From assembly GCA_018818165.1 (NCBI GenBank), contig JAHISP010000054.1:1-64000 (forward strand): a stretch of DNA of 64,000 bases, given 5' to 3'. The DNA comes from Bacteroidota bacterium (GTDB lineage Bacteria; Bacteroidota; Ignavibacteria; Ignavibacteriales; Melioribacteraceae). Position numbers and translations under genes: made by a program. The notes beneath the pieces were generated by a model that did not search any database, was not told where the DNA came from, and worked only from the letters and a program-made list of their open reading frames with translations. Each line of letters starts with the position of its first letter. Position 1 is the first letter of the stretch. Of this stretch, positions 8,735-42,927 are shown piece by piece.

Positions 8735-8860
8735 ATAAAGAAGATTTTTAAAAATATTTGAAATGTTTTACATGTTCATTTATTTGAATAGGTCAAGGTA
8801 AATTAAAAAAAGTAGTTATAATGTTTATATATAAAGTCTTTTTATAAGGATGAGGAGCAA

Positions 8861-11830
8861 ATGAAAAATATATTTATTTTAATTTTAACGATGAGTTTTG
8901 CGCACTCAATTATGGCAGAGGTTGTTGATAGCTCGTCATGTATTTCCTTTAAAAATGGAACAGGCTATTTTGCGTTGTCCTATAAAAATCAATCAGCACC
9001 TTTATTTGCAAGCTCAAAAGATCATCATGGAGTAATACGAGCCTTGAATGATCTTAAAACCGATATTGGAAAAGTAACGGGCAATGAACCATCAGTTGTC
9101 TTTGATGATTTATCACTTCCAAAAGAAATTGTAATAATAGGAACATTAGGAAAAAATCCTGTTATCAATCAACTAGTGCAAAACAAAAAACTTGATGTAA
9201 AGGATATTACTGGTAAATGGGAACATTTTCTTATTCAGGTTATTGAGAAACCATTTGAGGGAGTTGATAAAGCACTTGTTATTGTAGGTAGTGACAAGCG
9301 AGGAACCATTTATGGCATTTATAATTTATCTGAACAAATAGGTGTTTCGCCATGGTACTGGTGGGCTGATGTTCCAGTAGAGCATAAAGATGCTGTTTTC
9401 GTAAAACCTAATAAAATTACGCAAGGTCCAAGTGTTAAATACCGTGGTATTTTTCTTAATGATGAAGCACCAGCTTTAACCAATTGGATTAAGGAAAAGT
9501 TTGGCTTTGCTAAGCCTAGCAAATATCCACCTGTTGGTAATGAAGTAGTTAACTATGGACATGAGTTTTATTCTAAAATGTTTGAACTACTACTCAGATT
9601 AAAAGCAAACTATCTTTGGCCAGCTATGTGGAGTAATGCATTTAATGAAGATGATCCCAAAAACTCACGTCTTGCAGATGAATATGGCATTGTGATGGGA
9701 ACCTCGCATCAAGAGCCGATGCTTCGTTCTCAACAGGAATGGGATAGACGTTACTATGGTTCTCTTGGTCATTGGAATTATTCGAAACATGCTGATACAT
9801 TGGAAAATTTCTGGAGAGAAGGTGTTCGGCGCAATAAAAACTATGAAAGCATCATTACTATGGGGCTTCGTGGAGCTAATGATACAGAGATAGCCGGTGA
9901 TATGAAAGCCAATATAGCAATGGTTGAAGGTATTGTTAAAAAGCAACAAAAGATTATAAGCGAAGAAATGAACCCGGATATTACTAAAGTCCCTCAGTCG
10001 TGGTGTTTATACAAAGAGATAATGGAATATTACAACGAAGGCTTGCGCGTACCAGATAATATAACACTTTTGTGGTCGGATGATAACTGGGGTAATATAC
10101 GAAGACTACCAAATGAGGAGGAGCGTTTGAGAAGCGGAGGTGCTGGAGTTTATTATCACTTCGATTATCACGGAGGTCCTCGAAGTTATCAGTGGATAAA
10201 TACTAATCCAATTGCTAAAATTTGGGATCAGATGTCGCTTGCTAAACAATATGGAGCGGACAGAATATGGATAGTAAATGTGGGTCATTTTAAAGGATAC
10301 GAATTTCCAATGGAATATTTTTTGAGTTTAGCTTGGAATACAGACCGATGGAATAACTCTAACATTAATGAGTTCACTCGCTTATGGGCTGCAAGAGAAT
10401 TTGGTTACGAATATGCTGAAGAAATTGCTGAAATTATTTCGAAGTATACAAAATTCAATGGCAGACGTAAGCCCGAATCTTTGTCACCAAAAACTTATAG
10501 CTTAATAAATTATTGTGAAGCTGAAAATGTAGTGTTCGAGTTCAATAAAATTACTGCTCAAGCCGAAGACATTTATAACAAATTATCAAATGAAAAGCGT
10601 GATGCATTTTATCAGTTAGTATTATTTCCTACCAAAGCCAGTGCATTAGTAAATGAACTGTATGTTACTGCTGGTAAAAATGAGTTGTATGCACAACAGA
10701 GACGTGCAAGTGCAAATGATATGGCAACTAAAACTAGGAATTTGTTCCAAGCGGATACAGCCCTGATGGGTTATTTCAATCGTGATTTTGCTAATGGGAA
10801 ATGGAATCATTTTATGGATCAGACACATTTAGGATATATCGATTGGTCGGATCCCAAAACGAACAATCTTGATGCAATTAATCTTACAGAAATACAGGTT
10901 CCTGATTCAGCTATAATGGGAGTTAGCATTGAAGAATCAGAATTGAGCTGGCCAGGCTCTAATGAAAAGGCTGTGTTACCTGAATTTGATATTTTTAGCA
11001 ACAGTCAACATTATCTCGAAATTTTCAATAGGGGGAAAAATCCTTTTAACTTCACAATAAATACCAATGTTTCATGGCTTACTTTTAGTGATACTATTGG
11101 AACTATTGGCAATAGTGACAAAAGAATTATAATCAGTTTAGATGAATCTAAATTACCAAAAGGTAAAACTGACGGTATAGTTAAAATTGCAGGTGCTGGA
11201 AAAGAAGTATCAATAAAAGTAAATGCTTTTAATCCAACCGAAGTGAACAGTGAGAATCTGAAAGGATTTGTGGAAAGCGGTGGACTTATTTCAATAGAAG
11301 TCGAACACTATTCCAAAAATATTGAGCAAGGTGATAGGAAATGGATTAGAGTTGAAGATTACGGACTTACCTTATCAGGTATGAGGGCTACAGCTTCGGT
11401 AAACGCAGCGGCAGCAACGCCAGGAAAAGATGCACCCTGTTTGGAATACCCAATGTATCTGTTTTCAAAAGATTCTGTGCAAATTAATTTGATTACCTCT
11501 CCGCTTTTAAATTTTATGCCTGGACGTGATATTAAAATTGCTGTTTCTATTGACGACAAGGAACCGCAGTACATTACAAATGTACCTGATAAATTTAAGG
11601 TGCAATATTCAAATCCAGCTTGGGCATTAACCGTTGTAAATCAAGCAAGGAATTGCAAAACAACTATGAATATTGAAAAACCCGGTTATCACACGCTAAA
11701 GGTTTGGATGATTGATCCGGGCGTAGTCTTACAAAAAATAATAGTAAACACGGGTGGTTTAAAACCTAGTTATTTAGGACCTCCTGAGAGTAATAATGGT
11801 GTTAACTTATTTCAGAAAAAGACAAATTAA
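8861..11830 (+). CDS. GH115 xylan alpha-1,2-(4-O-methyl)glucuronidase
   Basis: 989 residues, the usual GH115 length. A signal peptide (MKNIFILILTMSFAHSIMAE) is followed by the N-terminal GH115 domain with the family pattern GTIYGIYNLSEQIG and WYWWADVP (~residues 150-180). The catalytic barrel follows (YLWPAMWSNAFNEDDP, MGTSHQEPM, LLWSDDNWG, YHFDYHG). A C-terminal GH115 domain spans ~830-980. GH115 enzymes remove (4-O-methyl)glucuronic acid from internal as well as terminal xylose units, which GH67 cannot do. GAGGAG lies 8 bases before the ATG. The DUF2264 gene follows after 28 bp, so the two are probably co-transcribed. Confidence 0.93.
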   Translation: MKNIFILILTMSFAHSIMAEVVDSSSCISFKNGTGYFALSYKNQSAPLFASSKDHHGVIRALNDLKTDIGKVTGNEPSVVFDDLSLPKEIVIIGTLGKNPVINQLVQNKKLDVKDITGKWEHFLIQVIEKPFEGVDKALVIVGSDKRGTIYGIYNLSEQIGVSPWYWWADVPVEHKDAVFVKPNKITQGPSVKYRGIFLNDEAPALTNWIKEKFGFAKPSKYPPVGNEVVNYGHEFYSKMFELLLRLKANYLWPAMWSNAFNEDDPKNSRLADEYGIVMGTSHQEPMLRSQQEWDRRYYGSLGHWNYSKHADTLENFWREGVRRNKNYESIITMGLRGANDTEIAGDMKANIAMVEGIVKKQQKIISEEMNPDITKVPQSWCLYKEIMEYYNEGLRVPDNITLLWSDDNWGNIRRLPNEEERLRSGGAGVYYHFDYHGGPRSYQWINTNPIAKIWDQMSLAKQYGADRIWIVNVGHFKGYEFPMEYFLSLAWNTDRWNNSNINEFTRLWAAREFGYEYAEEIAEIISKYTKFNGRRKPESLSPKTYSLINYCEAENVVFEFNKITAQAEDIYNKLSNEKRDAFYQLVLFPTKASALVNELYVTAGKNELYAQQRRASANDMATKTRNLFQADTALMGYFNRDFANGKWNHFMDQTHLGYIDWSDPKTNNLDAINLTEIQVPDSAIMGVSIEESELSWPGSNEKAVLPEFDIFSNSQHYLEIFNRGKNPFNFTINTNVSWLTFSDTIGTIGNSDKRIIISLDESKLPKGKTDGIVKIAGAGKEVSIKVNAFNPTEVNSENLKGFVESGGLISIEVEHYSKNIEQGDRKWIRVEDYGLTLSGMRATASVNAAAATPGKDAPCLEYPMYLFSKDSVQINLITSPLLNFMPGRDIKIAVSIDDKEPQYITNVPDKFKVQYSNPAWALTVVNQARNCKTTMNIEKPGYHTLKVWMIDPGVVLQKIIVNTGGLKPSYLGPPESNNGVNLFQKKTN

Positions 11831-26205: not shown

Positions 26206-28152
26206 ATGTTTAATTGTTTACTTGTCCGTTTAATAAAAAAAATAAGTTTGTTTATTTTGTTAGCAACAATTTTATTGCAGTTTACTAGCATAAGCGCACA
26301 ATCAATTTCAGTGAAGGGGAAAATTACTTCATCAAGGTTTCCGATTGTTGATGTTTTAATAACGTTTATTGATAATGCTGACACTACTTTGCAGTATTCT
26401 ACTCTTACAGATACTCAAGGAAGTTACCAAATTGATTTGGTTACATCAGTCAAATCAACTATAAATAATATTCCAACTAATTTTGAACTTGGTCAAAATT
26501 ATCCAAATCCTTTTGCCTCTTCTACAGATATTCCATACGGACTGAATAAGCAATCTAGTGTTAAAGTAATTATTTATGATATTCTTGGAAGAGTTGTACA
26601 AAAATTTAATGTAGGTCAAAAATCGTCTGGGACACATAATATATTATGGGATGGTCGAAATGAATTTGGACAAAAGGTAGCTAACGGAATATATTTTTAT
26701 AATTTTTTAGTTAATGGTGAATCGCAAGTAAAAAAAATGGTTTTTAACCAGAATGGAAATAGCTCTTTCACAATTCCAAGAACAGTTGCATTACATAAAA
26801 ATCTTTCTTTAGCAAAAGGGAAAATTGGAAAGGATATTCAAGGAACTAATTTTACTATTAGACTTCAGAACAGCAACACTACTACTCCTTTAATTGTTGA
26901 ACAAGAAATTAACAATATAGAAGTTAAAAATGATACTACTATAAACTTCTCTGTATCAACCATGTCTGTTGCAACAATAAATCTTGATAGTTTGCATCAA
27001 GTAATTAGGGGATTTGGAGCTTCAAATATAGTTCTATGGAGACCTGATATGACTGAGAGCGAGGTTTCTAAAGCTTTTGGTACTGATGATGGTCAGGTGG
27101 GATTTTCTATTCTGAGAATAATGGCTGAAGCTGATAGTAACCGTTGGAGTTTGTATTTACCAACGGCAAAAAAAGCTCAAGACCTTGGAGCAACCATTAT
27201 TGCTTCACCTTGGTTCGCACCAAATAGAATGAGTGAAAAGGTTGGCGCAATAAGTAGGGTTCGTTATGATATGTATGCTGAATACGGTGAGCATCTTAAT
27301 TCTTTTAATAAATATATGAAAAGAAATGGGGTTAATATTTATGGACTGTCTGTTCAAAATGAACCAGACATTGAAGAAAATTGGACTAGTTGGACTACAG
27401 AAGAAATGTTTACATTTATGAAAGACTATGCACATGCTATTGAAGGAACAAATGTAATGGCTCCAGAATCTTTTCATTTCGATCGCACATATTCTGATCC
27501 AATATTAAATGATTCTACCGCTTGTGCAAATACTGATATTGTTTGCGGTCATATTTATGGCGGTGGTTTGTCTCAATATTCATTAGCCCAAGAAAAAGGA
27601 AAAGAAGTATGGATGACTGAGTATTTAACTGGCGAAGAACATTCTGCAAATAATTGGGAATGGGCTTTTCAGGTTGCAAAAAACATAAATGATGTAATGA
27701 AAGCTGATATGAGTGCATATGTTTGGTGGTATATTGTAAGGTTTTATGGACCAATAGCAGATGGAGAATCAGCCCAAGCAAATCCACGTGAAGCTTATGG
27801 TAAAAAGGGAGAAGTTACAAAAAAAGGTTATGTAATGTCTCAATTTTCAAGATTTATTCGTCCCGGATTTTATAGAATTGAGTGCAGTGTTGCTCCAACT
27901 TCAAGTTTAGTAGCAGTAACTTCTTACAAAGACCCTTTGAGTTCTAAAATTGTTTTAGTTGCAATTAACAACAGTTCTTCTCAAGTAGAACAAAATTTTA
28001 GAATTCAAGGTAGTGGTTTATCTTTAACATTTATTCCTTATTCAACCACTGAAAACAAAAATTGTGAGAAAGGTAGTGAATTTAACGTTACAGACGGTCA
28101 GTTTAAATTTTCTTTGGAACCAGAAAGTATAACAACCTTTGTTTCTGAATAA
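26206..28152 (+). CDS. GH30 subfamily 8-type glucuronoxylanase with N-terminal sorting-domain-like module
   Basis: 648 residues. A signal peptide (~11-32) is followed by a carboxypeptidase-regulatory-like segment (~33-85) and then a FlgD/T9SS-sorting-like module (~90-182) with QNYPNPF at 97-103, VIIYDILGR and NGIYFYNF. The GH30 catalytic domain spans ~255-648. Acid/base is Glu386 in QNEPD and nucleophile Glu472 in WMTEYL. YVWWYIVRFYGP (Arg512) resembles the motif with which GH30_8 enzymes such as Bacillus XynC bind the 4-O-methylglucuronyl branch. The enzyme should cut xylan only near such branches. The protein ends ITTFVSE without a normal C-terminal sorting domain, which is unusual. AGGAG precedes the start. 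Confidence 0.9.
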   Translation: MFNCLLVRLIKKISLFILLATILLQFTSISAQSISVKGKITSSRFPIVDVLITFIDNADTTLQYSTLTDTQGSYQIDLVTSVKSTINNIPTNFELGQNYPNPFASSTDIPYGLNKQSSVKVIIYDILGRVVQKFNVGQKSSGTHNILWDGRNEFGQKVANGIYFYNFLVNGESQVKKMVFNQNGNSSFTIPRTVALHKNLSLAKGKIGKDIQGTNFTIRLQNSNTTTPLIVEQEINNIEVKNDTTINFSVSTMSVATINLDSLHQVIRGFGASNIVLWRPDMTESEVSKAFGTDDGQVGFSILRIMAEADSNRWSLYLPTAKKAQDLGATIIASPWFAPNRMSEKVGAISRVRYDMYAEYGEHLNSFNKYMKRNGVNIYGLSVQNEPDIEENWTSWTTEEMFTFMKDYAHAIEGTNVMAPESFHFDRTYSDPILNDSTACANTDIVCGHIYGGGLSQYSLAQEKGKEVWMTEYLTGEEHSANNWEWAFQVAKNINDVMKADMSAYVWWYIVRFYGPIADGESAQANPREAYGKKGEVTKKGYVMSQFSRFIRPGFYRIECSVAPTSSLVAVTSYKDPLSSKIVLVAINNSSSQVEQNFRIQGSGLSLTFIPYSTTENKNCEKGSEFNVTDGQFKFSLEPESITTFVSE

Positions 28153-28179
28153 AAATAAAAAGTGATAATGGAGTTAAAT

Positions 28180-29925
28180 ATGTTTAAAAGTAAATTTATA
28201 GCTGTTGTTATACTTATTGGAATATTGATATTGGGTTGTTCCACTAAGCCCATAAAGCAATTTACAAATCCAATATTAGCTGGCTTTTACCCAGATCCAA
28301 GTTTATGCAGAGTTGGAGAAGACTATTATTTAGTCACCTCAACATTTTCATATTTTCCCGGAATTCCAATATTTCATAGTAAAGATTTAGTTAATTGGGA
28401 ATTGATTGGACATGTATTAGATAGACCAGAACAATTAGATACCGAAGGTCTAGGTATTTCAAGAGGCATTTTTGCACCAGCAATTACATATAGTAATGGA
28501 ACTTTCTATGTTTCTTGCACAGTAGTTGATGGGGGAGGTAATTTTATTGTTACATCAGCAAAACCTGAAGGACCATATTCAGATCCGATTTGGCTTCCGG
28601 AAATAAATGGAATTGATCCATCTGTTTACTTTGATGATAATGGGAAAACATATATTCTTTATAATAGTGATGCTCCAGACAATAAACCTGAGTATAACGG
28701 ACATAGAACAATAAGAATGTTGGAATTAGAACCAACAAGTCTAAAGGCTAAAGGGGAAGAGAAAATTCTAATCAATGGTGGGAGTGATTTTAGTAAAAAA
28801 CCCGTTTGGATTGAAGGTCCACATTTTTATAAAAGATTTGGATATTATTATTTAATGGCTGCCGAGGGTGGAACTGCAGAGGATCACTCGGAAGTAATTT
28901 TTAGAAGTAAAGATATAAATGGTCCGTTTGAGCCATATAAAAATAATCCAATTTTAACTCAAAGGAATTTAGAGCCCAATAGACAGAATCCAATAACATC
29001 AACAGGGCACGCTGCTTTAGTTGAAACTCCTAGTGGAGAATGGTGGGCTGTATTTTTAGGATGCAGACCATATAAACCATTTGAAGAAGGGAATTATAAT
29101 CTAGGACGAGAAACATTTTTAGCTCCAGTTAGATGGATAAAGGAGGAAAATTCTGATGATTCAATTTGGCCAATCATAAATCCGGATTACGAAGAAGTAC
29201 AGTTTTATTATGATTATCCAAACATAGATATTAAGGGGAAAGTTGAAACTACTCCTTATAGCGGAAACTTTTCACTAAAGTATGAATTTGATAAACCAGA
29301 GCTTAATAAAAATTTTATTTTTCTAAGAACACCAAAAGAAAAGTGGTACAATTTAAATGAGAAAGAAAATTATTTAACAATTAATTTACGTCCAGAAACT
29401 TGCAGTGGAAAATTAAATCCAAGTTTTATCGGATACAGACAGCAGCATAATACTTGTACAGCAACAACATCTGTAATTTTTGATCCAATAACACAAAATG
29501 AAAAAGCTGGTCTTGTGGTAATAATGAATGAAAGTCATTTTTATTTTATTTGTAAATCCATTGAATATGGAAACCCAGTTGTACAATTATATATGGGTAG
29601 CGATAGCACGCTTGATACAAGCACCATGAAATTAATCGCTTCATCAAAAATTAATGAAAACGATTCTAAAAAAGAATTGCAGTTAAGAATGAATGCGGAT
29701 GGGAAAGATTACTCATTTCAATATTCTTTTGATAATACTAATTGGATAACACTAAAAGATAAAGTTGATGGAACTTACTTAAAATGTGATATACCAAGAG
29801 ATTTTGTTGGTTGCATTATTGCAATGTATGCTTCATCAAATGGCGAATCATCACAAAATAAAGCATTTTATAATTGGTTTGAATATGCTGGTAATGACGA
29901 AATTTACAATATAAAAAGGAAATAG
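28180..29925 (+). CDS. GH43 beta-xylosidase/arabinofuranosidase lipoprotein
   Basis: I chose ATG 28180: GGAG at 28170-28173 is six bases upstream, and the protein then opens on a lipoprotein signal peptide with lipobox LILGC. In-frame GTG 28162 and ATG 28168 lie upstream. From 28180 there are 581 residues: a GH43 propeller (NPILAGFYPDPS with the base Asp, GIDPSVYFD with the modulator Asp, WIEGPHFY with the acid Glu) and a C-terminal beta-sandwich (~360-575) as in beta-xylosidases. It is predicted to be membrane-anchored and to trim xylo-oligosaccharides in the periplasm or on the surface. It is the last intact xylan gene before the methyltransferase remnants. Confidence 0.9.
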   Translation: MFKSKFIAVVILIGILILGCSTKPIKQFTNPILAGFYPDPSLCRVGEDYYLVTSTFSYFPGIPIFHSKDLVNWELIGHVLDRPEQLDTEGLGISRGIFAPAITYSNGTFYVSCTVVDGGGNFIVTSAKPEGPYSDPIWLPEINGIDPSVYFDDNGKTYILYNSDAPDNKPEYNGHRTIRMLELEPTSLKAKGEEKILINGGSDFSKKPVWIEGPHFYKRFGYYYLMAAEGGTAEDHSEVIFRSKDINGPFEPYKNNPILTQRNLEPNRQNPITSTGHAALVETPSGEWWAVFLGCRPYKPFEEGNYNLGRETFLAPVRWIKEENSDDSIWPIINPDYEEVQFYYDYPNIDIKGKVETTPYSGNFSLKYEFDKPELNKNFIFLRTPKEKWYNLNEKENYLTINLRPETCSGKLNPSFIGYRQQHNTCTATTSVIFDPITQNEKAGLVVIMNESHFYFICKSIEYGNPVVQLYMGSDSTLDTSTMKLIASSKINENDSKKELQLRMNADGKDYSFQYSFDNTNWITLKDKVDGTYLKCDIPRDFVGCIIAMYASSNGESSQNKAFYNWFEYAGNDEIYNIKRK

Positions 29926-29949: not shown

Positions 29950-30198
29950 ATGAATCAGATTGTTGATTAAATTAAAAGTTGCATTGAAAGAGGCAGGATT
30001 AATAAGATATCACCTTATCCAAATAACATGTTGGGAATGGATGATGCAGATGAGCATAAAGTTCAAGCATTGGAACAGGAAATATCTCAGGATGAAATAT
30101 TAAGTGTTTGCAATGATACAATGGAAATTATTGGTGGATGTTGTGGCACAACTCCAGAACATATTTCAGCACTTTCAGAAGAAATAAAGAAATTATGA
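29950..30198 (+). pseudogene. Decayed corrinoid protein / homocysteine methyltransferase fusion remnant
   Basis: One frame of 83 codons has an early in-frame stop (TAA at 29968-29970). Its first part (IKSCIERGRINK, then DDADEHKVQALE and EILS) resembles the N-terminal helical cap of corrinoid methyltransferase proteins. The last part (IIGGCCGTTPEHISALSEEIK) is the C-terminal zinc-cysteine motif of homocysteine S-methyltransferase-type domains. The B12-binding Rossmann domain and the methyltransferase barrel are absent. A deletion apparently joined the start of a corrinoid-protein gene to the end of a methyltransferase gene. The final TGA overlaps the next small ORF (ATGATG), an operon-like junction that has survived. 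Confidence 0.7.
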
Positions 30199-30359
30199 TG
30201 TGCAAAATGTTTACTCAAATTGAAATTGACAAAAATGTGTTTATGGTTAAGTTAGATATTTCTTCAGTTGAAATAGATGAGACAAAAATGGGATTTGAAA
30301 TTAGCTATCAAAAAAGAATTAATAATTGTGCATACAGAGTATGTCAAAAAGAAAATTAA
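30195..30359 (+). CDS. Small ORF of unknown function between methyltransferase genes
   Basis: 54 codons starting at ATGATG that overlap the stop of the upstream remnant. The product (MMCKMFTQIEID..., with Cys at residues 3, 46 and 51 and an acidic middle) shows no signal peptide or membrane segment, and I do not recognise it. It may be a small intact protein of the corrinoid operon or the start of a truncated one. The reading frame continues upstream to 30138, but that part lies inside the remnant's methyltransferase motif in another frame. A UroD-like methyltransferase starts 41 bp downstream. Confidence 0.4.
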   Translation: MMCKMFTQIEIDKNVFMVKLDISSVEIDETKMGFEISYQKRINNCAYRVCQKEN

Positions 30360-30400
30360 AAGCGCGACCAAAGGTTTAAACTAATTTTAGGAATATAGAT

Positions 30401-31426
30401 ATGACTGATAAACAATGGGATATTTTAATTAGAACAATAAATGGTGAAGTGTTTAAAGAAATACCAGTTGGATTTATTATTGATAGTCCTTGGCTGCCTA
30501 ATTGGTATGGAATTAAAATTCTTGATTATTTTACCAATGATGAATTATGGCTTAATTCAAATTTAAAAGTAATCAAACAATTCCCTGATGTAATGTTTCT
30601 GCCTGGATTTTGGTCAGAATATGGAATGTGTACCGAACCCTCTGCTTTTGGAGCAAAGTGTACATTTCCCATTAATGAATTTCCACACGCACACAAAGTG
30701 GTTTTCTCTGCAGACCAAATTGATAATATGGTTGTTCCAAATCCCGAGACGGATGGACTACTTCCTTTTGTCTTAAATCGTTTAAAACTTGCTCAACCTC
30801 TTATAGAAGCAAAGGGTCATAAAATTCGTTTTGCCGTTGCGCGTGGACCATTAAATATTGCAAGCTTTTTAATGGGTTCAACAGAATTTTTAACAACAAT
30901 GATGATGATGCCCGATAAAGCTCATCTGCTTTTAAGAAAAATTACTGACTTCCTAAAAAGTTGGCTTGAGTTGCAAATAAAAACATTTCCAAGTATAGAT
31001 GGAATTTTTTTATTGGATGATATAATTGGCTTTATGGGTCCAAATGAATTTTCTATATTTGGGCTTCCTTATTTTAAAGAGTTGTATGACTTTGAAGTTA
31101 AAGTAAAGTTTTTGCATAATGATGCACCATGCAAAGCCTCCGCAAAATTTCTTCCAGAAATGGGAGTAAACCTTTTTAACATGGGCTTTGATATACATCT
31201 GAATGAGCTAAAAGAATTAACACAAAATAAAATTACTTTAGTAGGTAACATTCCTCCAAGAGATGTTTTAGCAAATGGAACAACTGAAGATGTTAAAACA
31301 AAAACCAAAGAGTTGATAAATTCATTGAAAGATAAATCAAGAATTATTTTATCGTGTGGAGGAGGAATGCCACCGGAAGTTACTTCCGAAAATATTGATG
31401 CTTTTATTAATTCGGTTCTTGGTTAG
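30401..31426 (+). CDS. UroD/MtaA-family methyltransferase (uroporphyrinogen decarboxylase-like)
   Basis: 341 residues, full length for the UroD-like methyltransferase family (MtaA, CmuA, MtbA relatives). It lacks a signal peptide and should be cytoplasmic. Visible family features are WLPNWYG near the N-terminus, VARGPLNIASFLMG (~146-158), FLLDDIIGF (~203-211), candidate metal ligands His239 and Cys244 in LHNDAPC, LVGNIPPRDVL (~280-290) and Cys319 in LSCGGGMPPE. Such proteins move methyl groups between a substrate or corrinoid protein and an acceptor; true haem-pathway decarboxylases look different. The neighbours are decayed corrinoid and UroD pieces within a glucuronoxylan locus, which hints at O-demethylation of a methylated sugar. 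The substrate is unknown. Confidence 0.8.
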   Translation: MTDKQWDILIRTINGEVFKEIPVGFIIDSPWLPNWYGIKILDYFTNDELWLNSNLKVIKQFPDVMFLPGFWSEYGMCTEPSAFGAKCTFPINEFPHAHKVVFSADQIDNMVVPNPETDGLLPFVLNRLKLAQPLIEAKGHKIRFAVARGPLNIASFLMGSTEFLTTMMMMPDKAHLLLRKITDFLKSWLELQIKTFPSIDGIFLLDDIIGFMGPNEFSIFGLPYFKELYDFEVKVKFLHNDAPCKASAKFLPEMGVNLFNMGFDIHLNELKELTQNKITLVGNIPPRDVLANGTTEDVKTKTKELINSLKDKSRIILSCGGGMPPEVTSENIDAFINSVLG

Positions 31427-31669: not shown

Positions 31670-33928
31670 ATGCAGTGTTTCTTTAAAAAATCAGCTAAAG
31701 TATTCTTTTTAATTTTATTTTTTTCAACTATTCTTTTTTCACAAACAGTTTGGGAAATTGAATCTTACAATATTTCTCTAGAAGATAATACTATTAAAAT
31801 TTTTAATGACAAAAAATTGATAACAGAAATCACTTCTTTTGCATTTAATTTTATAACTCCTAATGAAATAACTGTTGAAAATACTTATAAAGATTCTCTC
31901 GTATTAAAATTATCATTTGATGAGACTGATGGCATCAATAAAGATTTTCCGAAGGAAATTCTTTTAAATATTTCATATCATAACAATACATTCCACTTTT
32001 CAGCATTTCATAATTCATTCAAACATATTACAATTCAGATGAAAGACCTAGATGAACATTATTTTGGGCTGTTGGAAAAATTGTATCCCCACAACGCTAA
32101 AAGTCCAGATCTGAGAGGTGAAACTGTTGATGTAGAAATTTATTCAGCTGGGTATGAGGATTATGCAGAAAATTATGCTTCTGCCTATTCAGCATTTTAT
32201 ATGAGTAGCAATGGATATGGCAGTTTTTTCGACACATTTGCGAAAGGTCGTTACCATTTTTCTATTAACGGAAAAACTGAAATTTATCATCAAACGCAAA
32301 AACTTGACTGGTATTTGTTTTACGGACCAACAGGAGATAAAATTCATTCAGAGTACTATTCAGTAATAGGTAAACCCAAGTATGTTCCAATTTGGGCTTG
32401 TGGTCCAATCTTTTGGCGCGATGAAAATTACGGTGGAAAAGATCAAATATTAGATGATATTCAAAAATTTACAGAATTGGAAATACCTCTGACAGCTTGT
32501 TTTGTTGATCGTCCGTATAGCAATGGTGCAAATGATTGGTCAAAAATGGATTTTAATGATCAGTTTGCAAATCCAGAAATTTGGATAAAAACAATAAATG
32601 AAAAGTACGGTATGGAATTTATGACATGGATTGGTTCGCTAACTTTTGGGGATACTGATTTCCCAGGTTTACTTCCAAATTACAAAACATATATAGATTT
32701 AACAAATCCTGAAGCTTTGGTAGAATTAGAAAAACGATTAAGTGAAAATCAATATTCAGTTGGTGTTAAAGGACACAAAATGGATCGAGCTGATGAAGCT
32801 TTCCCTAGTACTGCTATTTGGCATGATAAAGTTGGGGAATCAGAAACCAGAAATAAATACGTTTATCTATTGGCTAAAACTATTCACGAATTCCTAACAA
32901 AAGCTGTTGGCAAAGATCAATTTAATTTTGCTCGTGCAGCATTTCATAGAACACAACCTTACTTAAGCGCAATTTGGGGGGGCGATGTTCGCACCAATTG
33001 GATTGGGATGGCAAGCAATCAAGCAAATGCAATGCGTTCGAGTTTTATGGGCTTTCCTGTATGGGGAACTGATGTTGGTGGATACTTGGGTGAAGGACGA
33101 ATTGATGAGCTTCTTTATATGCGTTGGCTTCAATGGGGCACATGGAACGGAATGTTCGACATAAAGATTGATGGATCAGGAGGAAAAGGTGAGGATAGAC
33201 CTCCTTGGAAATATTCAGAACAACTTCAAAATGTGTTTAGAGAAGCTTGCGAAACAAGAATGAAAATGCTGCCATATTCATATTCACTTGCTAACACATC
33301 GTACAAAAACGGTGTAATTATGAAACCTTTAACATATATGTATCCTACTGATGAAAAGACATATAATATTTGGGACGAATACATTTTTGGAAACGCACTT
33401 TTGATTGCTCCAGTGCTTACTAAATTAAATTCAAGAGATGTTTATCTGCCGGAAGGAATTTGGTTTGATTATAATAATCTAAATAAAACTTATAAAGGAC
33501 CAACAACAATTCATCAGGAGGTTCCAGTTGATATAGTTCCTATTTTTATTAAACAAAATTCAATATTTGTAACAGGAAATATCTTTCAAGGGAATTCTAA
33601 AATCTGGGATGGCGAAATTAAAGGGAAAGAGAAAATATCAATTCATGTTTTTCCAGGAGACATTAATTCCCATACAAATTTTACATATGTTGATTTACTT
33701 GATGGAGACACAGAAAAGAATATGCTCTTATCTCATACTTTAAATCAAATTTCATTTAATTCACCGAAATTATCAACCCTTTCAGATGTTGAGATAAAAT
33801 TAGATTTCAGACCATCAGAAATATTAAGTAATGGCAAGTCAATTGAGTATAGCTATGATGAAAATCTAGGTATTGCAAAAATTTCTTTCGATAAAATTGA
33901 ACGAATTAATATTGAAGTAATATACTAG
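31670..33928 (+). CDS. GH31 glycoside hydrolase (second paralogue)
   Basis: 752 residues with a signal peptide (FFLILFFSTILFSQ). The N-terminal sandwich is followed by a GH31 barrel with candidate nucleophile Asp372 in HKMDRADEAF and acid/base Asp439 in WGGDVRTNW. C-terminal beta-domains contain IAPVLTKLNSRDVYLPEG. The nucleophile motif KMDRADE differs from the WWMDSTEPD of the GH31 at 16133, so the two belong to different branches and probably have different substrates (alpha-xylose, alpha-glucose or alpha-galactose type linkages). GGAG lies about ten bases before ATG 31670. The 243-bp gap upstream contains no gene I can support. Confidence 0.82.
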   Translation: MQCFFKKSAKVFFLILFFSTILFSQTVWEIESYNISLEDNTIKIFNDKKLITEITSFAFNFITPNEITVENTYKDSLVLKLSFDETDGINKDFPKEILLNISYHNNTFHFSAFHNSFKHITIQMKDLDEHYFGLLEKLYPHNAKSPDLRGETVDVEIYSAGYEDYAENYASAYSAFYMSSNGYGSFFDTFAKGRYHFSINGKTEIYHQTQKLDWYLFYGPTGDKIHSEYYSVIGKPKYVPIWACGPIFWRDENYGGKDQILDDIQKFTELEIPLTACFVDRPYSNGANDWSKMDFNDQFANPEIWIKTINEKYGMEFMTWIGSLTFGDTDFPGLLPNYKTYIDLTNPEALVELEKRLSENQYSVGVKGHKMDRADEAFPSTAIWHDKVGESETRNKYVYLLAKTIHEFLTKAVGKDQFNFARAAFHRTQPYLSAIWGGDVRTNWIGMASNQANAMRSSFMGFPVWGTDVGGYLGEGRIDELLYMRWLQWGTWNGMFDIKIDGSGGKGEDRPPWKYSEQLQNVFREACETRMKMLPYSYSLANTSYKNGVIMKPLTYMYPTDEKTYNIWDEYIFGNALLIAPVLTKLNSRDVYLPEGIWFDYNNLNKTYKGPTTIHQEVPVDIVPIFIKQNSIFVTGNIFQGNSKIWDGEIKGKEKISIHVFPGDINSHTNFTYVDLLDGDTEKNMLLSHTLNQISFNSPKLSTLSDVEIKLDFRPSEILSNGKSIEYSYDENLGIAKISFDKIERINIEVIY

Positions 33929-34086: not shown

Positions 34087-34107
34087 TAATTATAATTGAG
34101 GAGAGAT

Positions 34108-35232
34108 ATGAATTATTTTATGAAATCAATAAATATAATTTTGTATCAACTAATATTTTTAGTTTTAGCTGTGAAGACCATTGCCCAACCTTCCTTAAAA
34201 GAGGAATTTAAAAACAATTTTATGATCGGTACAGCTTTGAGCAATCATCAAATATGTGAAAAAGATTCACTGTTGATTCAGTTAGTTGAAGAACAATTTA
34301 ATAGTATCACTCCAGAAAATCTTTTGAAATGGGAAAGAATTCATCCCGAGGAAGGTGTATATAATTTTGAGCCCGCAGATAGCTTTGTGGCTTTCGGTTT
34401 GCGAAATAAAATGTTTATTGTTGGTCATACCTTACTTTGGCATCAACAAACGCCTGCTTGGGTTTTTGAAGATGAAAAAGGAAATGAAGCTTCTCGTGAA
34501 TTATTATTAGGAAGATTGAAAGATCATATCTACACTGTTGTTGGAAGATACAAAGGTAAAATAAATGGATGGGATGTTGTAAATGAAGCAATTGAAGATA
34601 ATGGGGAAATGAGAAATTCAAAATGGTTAAAAATAATTGGTGAAGATTATATTGAGAAAGCATTTCAATTTGCACATGAAGCAGATCCAGATGTGGAATT
34701 ATATTATAATGATTTTAATATGTGGCACAAAGGAAAAATAAAAAGTGTTTCAAATTTGGTTAATAATATAAAATCAAAAGGAATAAAAATTTCTGGAGTT
34801 GGTTTACAAGGCCATTGGGGATTGACATATCCTAGTAATGAAGAAATTGATGAAGCTCTTGATACATACTCAAAACTAAATGTTAACCTTATGATTACGG
34901 AACTAGATATGGCAGTTCTTCCTTTACCGAATAACAATACAAGTGCAGAGATTACCAAAAATTATGAGCTACAAAAGAAGCTTAACCCTTATCCAAATGG
35001 ATTACCAGATTCAATGCAGGTTAAATTGGCAAATAGATATGAAGATTTTTTTAGACTGTTCAATAAATATAAAAGTGAAATAACAAGAGTTACATTTTGG
35101 GGTGTGAACGATTCCTATTCTTGGAAGAACAATTGGCCAATTAAAGGAAGAACTTCTTATCCTTTATTATTTGATAGAAATAATCAACCAAAACCAGCTT
35201 TTTATTCAGTAATAAATACTGTGAAAGAATAG
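34108..35232 (+). CDS. GH10 endo-1,4-beta-xylanase, single domain
   Basis: ATG 34108 follows AGGAG at 34099-34103; an in-frame TTG at 34096 overlaps that ribosome site and is rejected. From 34108 there are 374 residues: a signal peptide ending KTIAQ and one GH10 domain. Acid/base is Glu160 in WDVVNEA and nucleophile Glu265 in ITELDMA, with WHQQTP and VTFWGVND as further family blocks. Unlike the GH10 at 2384 it has no FnIII or T9SS domain, so it may be periplasmic and cut shorter xylo-oligosaccharides. It ends 32 bp before the GH67 gene, so the two are probably one operon. Confidence 0.94.
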   Translation: MNYFMKSINIILYQLIFLVLAVKTIAQPSLKEEFKNNFMIGTALSNHQICEKDSLLIQLVEEQFNSITPENLLKWERIHPEEGVYNFEPADSFVAFGLRNKMFIVGHTLLWHQQTPAWVFEDEKGNEASRELLLGRLKDHIYTVVGRYKGKINGWDVVNEAIEDNGEMRNSKWLKIIGEDYIEKAFQFAHEADPDVELYYNDFNMWHKGKIKSVSNLVNNIKSKGIKISGVGLQGHWGLTYPSNEEIDEALDTYSKLNVNLMITELDMAVLPLPNNNTSAEITKNYELQKKLNPYPNGLPDSMQVKLANRYEDFFRLFNKYKSEITRVTFWGVNDSYSWKNNWPIKGRTSYPLLFDRNNQPKPAFYSVINTVKE

Positions 35233-35264: not shown

Positions 35265-37430
35265 ATGAAGTTCAAAACATTATTGTTTTTTTTAATAATA
35301 CTAATATCGCAATTTGCAAAAGCTGAGGATGGATATAAACTTTGGCTTAGATATAATCTGATTTCAGATTCTGTAAAACTCAATGAATACAAAAATTTAA
35401 TTTCTGGATTTTATCTAAAAAACAATTCGCCAACATTAAATGTTGCAAAAGAGGAATTGGAAATTGGTTTATCTGGATTATTGGGTAAGAAAATAGAGCA
35501 AATAAATGACGTAAATTCTGATGGTACAATTTTAATCGTATTAAAAGATAAATTAAGTTCTTTTGGAAATTTTAATTTTGAAGATGCATTTAAAAATATA
35601 GGCGATGAAGGATTTTTAATATATTCAGAAAAAATCAATTCAAATAAAGTTACAATAATTTCTGCCAATTCTAATATTGGACTTCTTTACGGAGTCTTCA
35701 ATTTCCTAAAATTGATTCAAACAAATCAAGATATTTCAAACCTTTCTATTGTAAGCTCACCAAAAATAAAATTGCGTGTGCTTAATCACTGGGATAATTT
35801 GGATAGAACAGTTGAAAGGGGTTATGCGGGGTTCTCTATTTGGGATTGGCATAGACTGCCAGATTATATAGATCAAAGATACATCGATTATGCAAGAGCA
35901 AATGCTTCTATTGGAATCAACGGAACGGTGCTAACAAATGTAAACGCTAAAGCAATAGTCCTTACTAAAGAGTATTTAGTAAAGGTAAAAGCCCTTGCTG
36001 ATACTTTTCGTCCTTATGGAATTAGAGTATATTTAACTGCAAGGTTTAGTGCTCCTATTGAAATTGGAGGATTAAAAACTGCTGATCCACTTGATGAGGA
36101 AGTACAACAATGGTGGAAAGATAAGGTGAAAGAAATATATAGTTATATTCCAGATTTTGGTGGATTTGTTGTTAAAGCTAATTCAGAAGGGCAACCAGGC
36201 CCGCAAAATTATAACCGCTCTCATTCAGATGGTGCCAATATGCTGGCTGAAGCTTTAGAAGACTTTAATGGTTTTGTTATGTGGCGGGCTTTTGTGTACA
36301 GCAATGAAAATCCAGATGATAGAGCGAAACAAGCTTACAATGAGTTTCAACCGCTTGATGGTAAATTTAGAGCTAATGTTTTTATTCAAACAAAGAATGG
36401 GGCTATTGATTTTCAACCACGAGAACCTTTCCATCCATTATTTGGGGTTATGCCAAAAACACCTTTAATGATGGAATTTCAAATTACACAAGAATATTTA
36501 GGTCAGGGAACGCAATTAGCTTATCTTTCTCCTTTATACAAAGAGTGTTTAGATTCTGATACTTATGCAAATGGGGAAGGTTCATTTGTATCAAGAGTAA
36601 TCGATGGAAGCTTAAACAAGCAAATAAATAGTGGAATTGCTGGAGTCGCTAATATTGGAACGGATAGAAATTGGACCGGGCATTTATTTGGTCAATCTAA
36701 TTGGTTTGCTTTCGGCAGATTGGCTTGGAATCACGAGTTAACATCTGAAGAAATTGCAGATGAATGGATTAAAATGACATTTTCAAATAATGAAGGTGTA
36801 GTAAAAAAAATTAGTGATATAATGCTAAATTCCAGAGAAAATTTAGTTAATTACATGACACCACTTGGCTTGCACCATCTTATGGGATGGGATCATCATT
36901 ATGGTCCATCGCCTTGGATAAAAGATAAACCCCGCGCAGATTGGACTTCAGTTTATTATCATAAAGCAGATTCCAACGGAATTGGTTTCGATAGAACAAT
37001 AACAGGAAGTAATGCGGTTAGTCAATATTTTCCTATAGTTGCAAAGAAATTTTCTTCATTAGAAACTTGTCCAGAAGAATATTTATTATGGTTTCATCAT
37101 TTAAATTGGGATTTCAAATTAAAAAATGACGTAACTCTTTGGGATGAAATGTGCTATAGATATTATAAAGGTGCGGAAACAGTGGGGAATAAAATTAATA
37201 TTTGGAATAGTCTAAAAGATGAAATAGATGCTGAGCGATTTAATCATGTAAAGATGTTATTAAACATTCAGCAAAAAGAAGCTAAGTGGTGGAGAGATGC
37301 ATCCATTTTGTATTTTCAGACGTTTTCAAAAAGAGATTTACCACAAGGACTTAAAAAACCAGATAAAACTTTAGAGTATTATGAAAATCTCAAATTTCCA
37401 TTTGCCCCTGGAATAAGACCAAAGTGGTAA
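35265..37430 (+). CDS. GH67 alpha-glucuronidase
   Basis: 721 residues with a signal peptide (to ~residue 20, ending FAKA). The N-terminal domain starts DGYKLWLRYN, typical of GH67. The barrel has RVLNHWDNLDRTVERGYAG and candidate catalytic residues Glu308 (KANSEGQPG), Asp382 (AIDFQPR) and Glu410 (TQEY). Their spacing (74 and 28) closely follows Glu292, Asp365 and Glu393 of the Cellvibrio enzyme. GH67 removes (4-O-methyl)glucuronic acid only from the non-reducing end of short xylo-oligosaccharides, so it complements GH115 (8861) and works on products of the GH10 just upstream. Confidence 0.94.
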   Translation: MKFKTLLFFLIILISQFAKAEDGYKLWLRYNLISDSVKLNEYKNLISGFYLKNNSPTLNVAKEELEIGLSGLLGKKIEQINDVNSDGTILIVLKDKLSSFGNFNFEDAFKNIGDEGFLIYSEKINSNKVTIISANSNIGLLYGVFNFLKLIQTNQDISNLSIVSSPKIKLRVLNHWDNLDRTVERGYAGFSIWDWHRLPDYIDQRYIDYARANASIGINGTVLTNVNAKAIVLTKEYLVKVKALADTFRPYGIRVYLTARFSAPIEIGGLKTADPLDEEVQQWWKDKVKEIYSYIPDFGGFVVKANSEGQPGPQNYNRSHSDGANMLAEALEDFNGFVMWRAFVYSNENPDDRAKQAYNEFQPLDGKFRANVFIQTKNGAIDFQPREPFHPLFGVMPKTPLMMEFQITQEYLGQGTQLAYLSPLYKECLDSDTYANGEGSFVSRVIDGSLNKQINSGIAGVANIGTDRNWTGHLFGQSNWFAFGRLAWNHELTSEEIADEWIKMTFSNNEGVVKKISDIMLNSRENLVNYMTPLGLHHLMGWDHHYGPSPWIKDKPRADWTSVYYHKADSNGIGFDRTITGSNAVSQYFPIVAKKFSSLETCPEEYLLWFHHLNWDFKLKNDVTLWDEMCYRYYKGAETVGNKINIWNSLKDEIDAERFNHVKMLLNIQQKEAKWWRDASILYFQTFSKRDLPQGLKKPDKTLEYYENLKFPFAPGIRPKW

Positions 37431-41512: not shown

Positions 41513-42796
41513 TTATTTCATCTCAATTTCTTTAATTTCAGGAACAAGAAGATTAATTATAAATAAAGCAATCAAATATAGAGATCCTGCAATTATGAAC
41601 AATATTAAATAACTGCCAGTAAATTCCAAAATAAATCCAGCAGCAGTTGCAATAAGCATTCCACCAATTGCACCAAACATGCCGCCTAATCCAACAACAG
41701 AACCAACAGCTTTTCTTGGAAACATATCTGAAACAGTTGTAAAAAGATTAGCAGACCAAGATTGATGAGCTGCTGTGGCTAAACTTAATAATGCAACAGC
41801 AATCCATACACTTGAAGCTTCTGATGCAAAAACAATTGGGATAACAGTTATAGCACTAATTAACATAGTAGTTTTTCTTGCCTTATTAATTGTCCAACCC
41901 TTTTTAATAAAGAAGGAAGATAGCCAACCACCTCCGATACTGCCTACATCAGCCATTACATAAATAACTATTAATGGAGCGGCAAATTCTTTTAATGTTA
42001 ATCCATAAGTATCTTTCAGAAATTTTGGTATCCAGTATAAATAGAACCACCATGCGGGATCAGTTAATAATTTCCCAATTGCAAAAGCCCATGTACCACG
42101 AAATTTTAATAGATTTTTCCATGGAATTTTTATTGTAGGATCAGGGGGATCAGATTGGATATATTTGAGTTCACTATCTGAAACTCTTTTACTATCTTCT
42201 GGTTTATCATAAAGCCAAAACCAAAAAATTAACCAAATTAAACCTGCACCACCTGTGAAAATAAAAGCTTCTTTCCAACCCCATGTAATTGTAATAAAAG
42301 GAACAACTAAAGGAGCAAGAACAGCGCCAACATTTGAACCTGCATTAAATATTCCGGTAGCAAAAGCTCTTTCCTTTTTAGGGAACCATTCAGCAACTGT
42401 TTTTATTGCAGCAGGGAAGTTTCCTGCTTCAAAGAAACCAAGAGCAAAACGTGCAATACCAAAACCAAATACTGTGCTTGCTAAAGCATGCCCAATGGCT
42501 GCAAAACTCCAACCTGTTAATGCTACTGAGTATCCAACTTTACTTCCAAGTCTGTCCATGAATCGACCAATTAAAAGTAAACCGATAGCATATGCAGCAG
42601 TAAAAGCTGTAACAATATAACCGTATTCAATTTCACTCCAACCAATTTCTTTTTCTAAAGTTGGAGCTAATATTCCAATAACTTGTCTATCAATGTAATT
42701 TATTGTTGTTGCAAAAAACACTAGGGCTAAAATTACCCAACGAAATTTTCCAATTTTTACGTTTTCTTGCGAATTATCATTCCCTAGTTTGTTCAT
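41513..42796 (-). CDS. MFS transporter, hexuronate (ExuT)-type anion:cation symporter family
   Basis: The frame is open to 42904, but I start at ATG 42796 because AGGAG lies just upstream and the resulting 427-residue protein begins like its family (MNKLGND..., then FRWVILALVFFATTINYIDR). The extra upstream part runs through a GC-rich non-coding element. About 12 membrane segments are visible, with the family loop DRLGSKVGY and ARFALGFFEAGNFPAAIKT, typical of the ACS/ExuT branch. It probably imports glucuronate or galacturonate with protons. This fits glucuronic acid released by GH115 and GH67, though no uronate isomerase gene is in the window. Confidence 0.85.
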   Translation of the reverse strand: MNKLGNDNSQENVKIGKFRWVILALVFFATTINYIDRQVIGILAPTLEKEIGWSEIEYGYIVTAFTAAYAIGLLLIGRFMDRLGSKVGYSVALTGWSFAAIGHALASTVFGFGIARFALGFFEAGNFPAAIKTVAEWFPKKERAFATGIFNAGSNVGAVLAPLVVPFITITWGWKEAFIFTGGAGLIWLIFWFWLYDKPEDSKRVSDSELKYIQSDPPDPTIKIPWKNLLKFRGTWAFAIGKLLTDPAWWFYLYWIPKFLKDTYGLTLKEFAAPLIVIYVMADVGSIGGGWLSSFFIKKGWTINKARKTTMLISAITVIPIVFASEASSVWIAVALLSLATAAHQSWSANLFTTVSDMFPRKAVGSVVGLGGMFGAIGGMLIATAAGFILEFTGSYLILFIIAGSLYLIALFIINLLVPEIKEIEMK

Positions 42797-42877
42797 ATTG
42801 CTCCTATTTAATAAAGAATAAATTAAGCTACAATTTAACTTAGTTTCATTAGTGTCAAGAACTATAACCTTAACAAC

Positions 42878-42927
42878 GGCGGATAAGACCCCTTTCGCTA
42901 TCACGCTAGGAAAATTCTACATCCGCC
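42878..42927. repeat. GC-rich inverted-repeat element
   Basis: GGCGGAT at 42878-42884 is inverted at ATCCGCC 42921-42927. The 36 bases between them, which include CGCTATCACGCTAGG, are much more GC-rich than the surroundings. It lies between xylA and the transporter gene on the minus strand. It may be a small mobile-repeat relic or a structured terminator; no T-tract follows. Confidence 0.4.

Follow-up and report, generated by a model that had tools for sequence, protein, structure and literature searches.

A UroD-superfamily protein of a glucuronoxylan locus in Ignavibacteria as a proposed corrinoid-dependent 4-O-methylglucuronate O-demethylase

Why should a methyltransferase gene of the UroD superfamily lie among genes for the breakdown of glucuronoxylan? 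Such a gene, here called UroDA, is found in a stretch of 64,000 nucleotides from a member of the Melioribacteraceae (Ignavibacteria), contig JAHISP010000054.1, which we refer to as the window (Table 1). Among the main side chains of wood xylan is 4-O-methylglucuronic acid, and the final step of the glucuronate pathway, that of KDPG aldolase, is a retro-aldol cleavage which requires a free hydroxyl at C4. The 4-O-methyl group would block this step and must therefore be removed first. Xylan is described as carrying both glucuronic acid and 4-O-methylglucuronic acid as decorations, and the GH115 enzyme of Bacteroides ovatus as releasing either of them; like GH67, it has room for the methyl group (PMC3879575). 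The first-pass annotation of the window had suggested that the methyltransferase may take this methyl group off the sugar.

Table 1. Positions of UroDA, its neighbours and the remnants beside it in the window, and of the partner cluster on contig C101 of the same genome
Feature	Position	Strand	Basis
GH115 alpha-(4-O-methyl)-glucuronidase family, about 20 kb from UroDA	8861..11830	+	Pfam
GH30-type xylanase candidate, weak support	26206..28152	+	Pfam GH30 C-domain and GH59 matches only
GH43 beta-xylosidase type, also precedes the module in close relatives	28162..29925	+	Pfam
Remnant of corrinoid (B12-binding) protein, N-terminal part, with a single in-frame TAA	29950..30123	+	alignment score, tblastn
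Remnant, C-terminus of homocysteine S-methyltransferase, GGCCGTTPEHI, same frame as preceding piece	30127..30198	+	PF02574, alignment score, tblastn
Remnant of methionine-synthase-activation-like protein, N-terminal part, the weakest of these remnants	about 30195..30359	+	alignment score
UroDA, intact protein of the UroD superfamily, proposed O-demethylase (substrate-specific methyltransferase) acting on 4-O-methylglucuronate	30401..31426	+	Pfam URO-D, AlphaFold2 model, own clade
GH31	31670..33928	+	Pfam
GH10 xylanase family	34096..35232	+	Pfam
GH67 alpha-glucuronidase	35265..37430	+	Pfam
MFS transporter, candidate uronate importer (substrate inferred)	41513..42904	-	695.8 bits to cluster profile
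C101 cluster with 375-aa UroD	L110 (G000 C101) 7782-11344		

The neighbouring GH43, GH31, GH10, GH67 and GH115 genes named in the first-pass annotation are all recognized by Pfam, the assignment of the GH30-type gene being the weaker one. UxaC, UxuA and UxuB have no match within the window. Other genes of the xylan locus encode a CotH kinase-like protein that carries lamin-tail domains together with a secretion-sorting tail (21142-24102) and, between GH115 and GH127, a DUF2264 protein (11859-13913).

The predicted UroDA protein of 341 amino acids comes from an intact reading frame and contains a URO-D domain (PF01208; E 1.6e-35, 123.2 bits against a cut-off of 23.9). No stop interrupts it and none of the 69 columns invariant across 34 relatives is changed. 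Residues W31, W71, E73, E79, R127, R148, D206, D207, H239, N240 and D241 are among those that do not vary. Its AlphaFold2 model (mean pLDDT 92) finds MtaA (4ay7; Z 31.5, 19% identity) as the top structural match, and UroD entries match about as well (Z 28.7–31.0); domain and fold both place UroDA in the UroD superfamily, within which the Foldseek and VIA comparisons do not separate UroD from MtaA. Against the family models it scores far under the cut-offs for HemE, MtaA/CmuA, MtaA and MtbA, with 54.8 bits against a cut-off of 302.95 for HemE (TIGR01464) and 66.8 against 235.4 for MtaA/CmuA (TIGR01463). A separate HemE gene is present in the same genome (L111:7594-8640; 428.3 bits), and its neighbours, read by eye, look like heme-pathway genes. 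Where MtaA has the motif HxC...C, the alignment shows HND...CGGG in UroDA; HxC with a later C is present in MtaA and in those rows shown for UroDB, a second UroD-family protein described below, and for UroDs of the type found on contig C101. The HxC...C of MtaA/CmuA-type proteins has a zinc role, and its replacement is to be expected if UroDA does not activate a thiol.

The first-pass annotation had proposed a tree of the 341-residue protein with MtaA, MtbA, CmuA and MtvA. In the tree that we built, whose references are MtaA and HemE only (rows for MtbA, CmuA, VdmB and OdmB being absent), UroDA and its relatives of 35–37% identity group in a single clade (100/98), separate from UroDB, C101-type UroD, MtaA and HemE, the positions of the last two being unsure because of their long branches. 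The terminal branch of the window's UroDA (0.21) compares with 0.22 in L034, 0.23 in L041 and 0.12 in L020. Judged by its sequence, UroDA is a member of a little-known branch of the UroD superfamily, neither HemE nor MtaA-like beyond the fold. The earlier description of an intact UroD/MtaA-like methyltransferase is right as to the intact frame and the URO-D domain and holds for MtaA in fold only; a grouping with the true haem-pathway decarboxylases, which the first-pass annotation had taken to be fatal to its idea, is not what we find, the HemE of this genome being another gene.

Immediately 5' of UroDA, starting 24 bases past the stop of GH43, lie three gene remnants in the order and position of an operon that is intact in relatives. 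The corrinoid remnant gave a local alignment score of 166 (500 shuffles: mean 25, maximum 45), the S-methyltransferase remnant a score of 91 (shuffle maximum 40) together with a match to Pfam S-methyl_trans (PF02574; E 1.3e-10), and the activation-like remnant a score of 65 (shuffle maximum 42), so that chance is an unlikely source of these similarities. Independent searches, including tblastn, also recovered the first two; the activation-like remnant had no tblastn match at 1e-3. What had been described as one decayed corrinoid/homocysteine-methyltransferase piece is therefore real, but consists of three pieces and includes the activation-like protein.

The intact arrangement in relatives of the same family (the first-pass annotation had proposed a search of related Ignavibacteria) reads GH115, GH43, corrinoid protein (about 222 amino acids), S-methyltransferase (about 300), activation-like protein (about 245) and UroDA in loci L114, L115, L116 and L118, and is the same minus the activation-like gene in L117. 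In L116 the gaps from GH43 through corrinoid protein, S-methyltransferase and activator to UroDA are 12, 11, −4 and 18 bases, an operon-like array, and both L116 and L117 have UxuA and a UxuB-like dehydrogenase downstream. Pfam recognized B12-binding, S-methyl_trans, Met_synt_B12, UxuA, UxaC, GH115, GH10, GH8 and GH88 among the representative neighbours. The partner proteins keep their hallmark residues, namely GDLHDIGKN in the corrinoid protein, the cysteines of NCG and GGCC in the S-methyltransferase and RxSPGYC in the activation-like protein, which resembles the SAM-binding loop of MetH. With these motifs retained, the set looks like a methionine synthase in pieces, in which UroDA would replace the methyltetrahydrofolate arm. 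The activation-like proteins (for example L020:9220-9954) also share a conserved C-terminal cysteine motif, YxCxxC...C.

To see what stands beside UroDA more widely, we surveyed the best 80 of 269 matching stretches, to which all locus counts in this and the next paragraph refer; UroDA is uncalled in L035 and L046 (78 of 80 called), both of which are kept in the denominators, and the counts are lower bounds because many loci end at contig ends. Within 10 kb of UroDA a uronate gene (GH115, GH67, UxaC, UxuA or UxuB-like) was found in 28 loci, a xylan gene (GH43, GH10 or GH8) in 25 and either in 37; the assignment of the UxuB-like gene rests on a profile built from a cluster of short-chain dehydrogenases, which is not specific for UxuB, and there are 25 uronate loci without it. 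Linkage is seen in 26 of the 34 closest loci (≥68% identity) and in 11 of the other 46, whereas the first-pass annotation would have given up its idea had relatives of the protein never been near glucuronoxylan genes. By gene, GH115 is a neighbour in 14 of the 80 loci, the UxuB-like gene in 12, GH67 in 7, UxuA in 5 and UxaC in 4. As in known O-demethylase systems, a corrinoid protein is near UroDA (29/80), and S-methyl_trans and Met_synt_B12-like genes (27/80 each) supply an acceptor methyltransferase and an activator, of a type that differs from the tetrahydrofolate/RACE systems. Where no partner set is adjacent, UroDA comes right after GH43 (L028, L033, L043, L051, L188), right after GH115 (L025, L038) or right after the UxuB-like gene (L031, L039, L077, L094), and GH67 is the next called gene after UroDA in L041, L056 and L098. 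Since UroDA without the set is still beside GH43, GH115, GH67 and UxuB-like genes, it is UroDA, not the set, that tracks the sugar. Sister modules served as controls, and none of their 20 loci (9 with C101-type UroDs, 11 with other corrinoid proteins, 5.7–20 kb long) is linked to xylan or uronate genes; as 19 of the 20 control genomes are without GH115, the controls show that the sister modules are not xylan-linked and do not give a matched chance rate. In Bacteroidales and Spirochaetes the link is weak, UroDA often being next to unrelated genes. Among the 43 genomes with unlinked UroDA loci GH115 was present in 22 and not found in 21, compared with 54 of 395 in a sample of the phylum, a base rate from bacteria that were not chosen to match in lifestyle; the short contig L027, one of the 22, seems to represent G057 of the window's own family a second time. 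This comparison lends weak support to the link.

Three further gene families recur in these loci. UroDB is found near UroDA at 8 of the 80 (L020:13729-14775, L114:12436-13455, L115:1237-2262, L116:10933-11709 and L117:12903-13931 are copies); it lies downstream in L114–L117, immediately after UroDA in L116 only, and with its MtaA-like HxC...C in the rows shown may be a second, thiol-type methyltransferase. With UroDA as query, no clear copy of UroDB was found in the window's genome. A GH88-family gene (for example L031:11041-12345), also at 8 of the 80 loci, hints that unsaturated uronic acids, or others, may be substrates nearby. The MFS transporter cluster recurs at 6 of the 80, one representative being recognized as MFS_1.

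The association extends to whole genomes. UroDA orthologues, defined by at least 69% identity, occur in 14 of 79 genomes of the family (G000, G014, G015, G019, G035, G049, G050, G052, G056, G057, G058, G066, G067 and G069), and GH115 is present in exactly the same 14; the threshold excludes G046 (27%) and a second match in G069 (30%), and 15 genomes would be counted otherwise. Permutation inside the five genera of mixed state gave p = 1/21,600, with kinship within genera ignored. UroDA and GH115 share a contig in 10 of the 14, about 4–20 kb apart, and are on separate contigs in the other four. GH67 is present in 11 of the 14, being absent from the search results for G015, G057 and G067, and two genomes of the family, G029 and G044, have GH67 without UroDA. 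In the phylum sample of 395 genomes, UroDA (E ≤ 1e-60) was found in 11, GH115 in 54 and both in 10, G432 having UroDA without GH115. The remaining 44 GH115 genomes, all outside the window's class, indicate that the sugar can be handled without UroDA. Three of the phylum-sample UroDA proteins, of only 35–37% identity, lie on a different contig from GH115, yet their genomes carry it, which counters an explanation of the association by chance or by hitch-hiking of the neighbourhood. The sister branch of UroDA at 35–37% identity is represented by L185, L186 and L187, from other families of the class and all with GH115; corrinoid and S-methyltransferase genes adjoin the sister-branch UroDA in L186 and L187.

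If the local partners are wrecked, which proteins could UroDA work with? The first-pass annotation had thought the system either dying or dependent on partners elsewhere. On contig C101 of the window's genome an intact corrinoid protein, S-methyltransferase and activation-like protein are encoded beside a different UroD of 375 amino acids. This corrinoid protein is 65–71% identical to UroDA-adjacent corrinoid proteins of nine genomes of the family and 67% identical to one in G065, a genome without UroDA. In the corrinoid tree it belongs to a clade with 24 members (100/97), made up of 21 UroDA-linked proteins, the two C101-kind proteins and the G065 protein; 16 of the 37 UroDA-linked corrinoid proteins are outside this clade, and those beside C101-type UroDs in G055, G062, G029 and G044 belong to a distant one. 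In the window's genus there has been an apparent partner swap, the 375-residue UroD being paired with a corrinoid set of the UroDA type. In the sister species G001 the C101 cluster is present, and both UroDA and GH115 are missing, which means that the other UroD is served by this set as well; most simply, one partner set would work for two substrate proteins, and the proteins encoded on C101 probably serve UroDA in trans. Against such a partnership, the adjacent 375-residue UroD may be the proper user of the set. Among other genomes of the family whose UroDA has no adjacent set, a partner corrinoid protein is encoded elsewhere in G015 (39% identical) and G069 (59% identical); in G014, which is 84% complete and has UroDA, no corrinoid protein of this type was found at E ≤ 1e-40. 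The window's genome also has a MetH-like frame of 1233 amino acids on contig C64. Of the two outcomes foreseen earlier, the local set is indeed broken and an intact, related set exists, and dying is not the best reading.

We consider it likely that UroDA is the MT1 component of a corrinoid-dependent 4-O-methylglucuronate O-demethylase with homocysteine as acceptor, working in trans with the partners encoded on C101. Outside the cytoplasm, GH115 and GH67 would free 4-O-methylglucuronic acid from xylan, and a transporter would import it. By eye, the N-terminus of UroDA has no signal peptide and GH67 begins with one, so UroDA likely acts in the cytosol, after import. There it would transfer the 4-O-methyl group of the sugar, or possibly of a close derivative, to the Co(I) of the small corrinoid protein, and the glucuronate so formed would enter the isomerase, oxidoreductase and dehydratase pathway. 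The homocysteine S-methyltransferase would pass the methyl group from the corrinoid on to form methionine, and the MetH-activation-like protein would rescue oxidized corrinoid. By our estimate the methyl supply from the sugar, were all of it to end up in methionine, would exceed the need for methionine, and a further sink or the export of methionine is likely; UroDB, with its thiol-type motif, is a candidate for such a sink. The suggestion of sugar O-demethylation has gained a linked genomic context and come through the tests set for it, while substrate, direction and acceptor, like import and the partnership in trans, are what we infer from that context.

Other roles for UroDA can be weighed against the same observations. 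Lignin accompanies xylan, and UroDA might act on another ether found there, such as the methoxyl groups of lignin or of ferulic or sinapic esters, as VdmB and OdmB do; we regard this as quite improbable, as the recurrent neighbours of UroDA belong to uronate handling and no aromatic-acid gene is among the named conserved neighbour clusters. There is a small but appreciable chance that the sugar is indeed the substrate and that the methyl group is lost at another stage, from 4-O-methyl-mannonate or 4-O-methyl-KDG, as the UxuB-like gene immediately 5' of UroDA in four loci would suggest, or still from an aldouronic acid, with GH67 as the next called gene in three; the tightest partner at genome level is GH115, which favours the released sugar.

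That the window's UroDA is a functionless leftover is suggested by the three broken genes adjoining it, but is unlikely given its uninterrupted frame, its unaltered invariant positions and an end branch in line with those of L034 and L041. Nor do we equate local decay with loss of function, since intact partners exist on C101 and UroDA of other xylan loci is likewise without an adjacent set. Finally, the shared fold could mean that UroDA is simply a haem-pathway decarboxylase or a methylcobamide:thiol methyltransferase of the MtaA/MtbA type; with scores so far below both family models, the HxC...C missing and HemE encoded separately, this is scarcely credible. Preferring, then, the demethylation of 4-O-methylglucuronate itself, we also lean, by a little, towards its general form: a B12-dependent and oxygen-independent sugar O-demethylase, converting 4-O-methylglucuronate and homocysteine to glucuronate and methionine, that would occur in several phyla, with an exchangeable partner set and UroDA giving the specificity.

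How does the proposed system compare with those already described? VdmB and OdmB work with a small corrinoid protein on a methyl ether substrate, and the likeness to UroDA lies in these features and in the UroD-family methyltransferase, the methyl ether being proposed in the case of UroDA. Compared by description and not by sequence, they differ in acting on aromatics, whereas UroDA has a glucuronoxylan context, a homocysteine-type acceptor and a MetH-activation-like partner. VdmB and OdmB are UroD-superfamily methyltransferases for phenolic ethers, and bacterial systems are described with tetrahydrofolate acceptors and Ram/RACE activases (PMC10418091). The mlp gene clusters likewise combine UroD homologues with a corrinoid protein in many anaerobes (Kountz and Balskus, PMC10418091), but contain multiple MtaA-like proteins along with a Ram/RACE activase and have been suggested to act in methyl-sulfur/selenide metabolism (PMC10418091); the UroDA module has instead a protein that is not MtaA-like, a homocysteine methyltransferase, a MetH-activation-like protein and xylan enzymes. 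Another UroD gene with corrinoid-like genes, and by eye with sensor-kinase-like and sugar-kinase-like genes, is present in the window's genome (L113, contig C86) and is perhaps an mlp-type cluster. MtaA, MtbA and CmuA resemble UroDA in fold and differ in the family cut-offs that UroDA fails to reach and in the HxC...C that it has replaced. The partner set resembles MetH, with S-methyl_trans, B12-binding and activation functions as separate proteins, and differs from it in that the scanned set proteins gave no match to a pterin-binding family, UroDA taking over, in our proposal, the methyl-donor arm. Marine Flavobacteriia demethylate 6-O-methyl-D-galactose oxidatively by a P450 (PMC10033563), which likewise removes a methyl ether from a sugar derived from a polysaccharide; that enzyme is a monooxygenase and yields formaldehyde (PMC10033563), whereas the proposed UroDA route would be free of oxygen and keep the methyl group.

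Among the matches listed in searches of the open-access literature (titles and abstract openings), none connects 4-O-methylglucuronate to a corrinoid or names an enzyme that demethylates it, and none describes a corrinoid enzyme that acts on the ether of a sugar. If our reading is true, UroDA would be, to our knowledge, the first corrinoid demethylase known to act on a sugar. It offers a testable gene family for the demethylation of 4-O-methylglucuronate in anaerobes, suggests a fate for the methyl group and ties vitamin B12 to the breakdown of plant biomass; if true, the breakdown of glucuronoxylan in these bacteria would be coupled directly to the synthesis of methionine.
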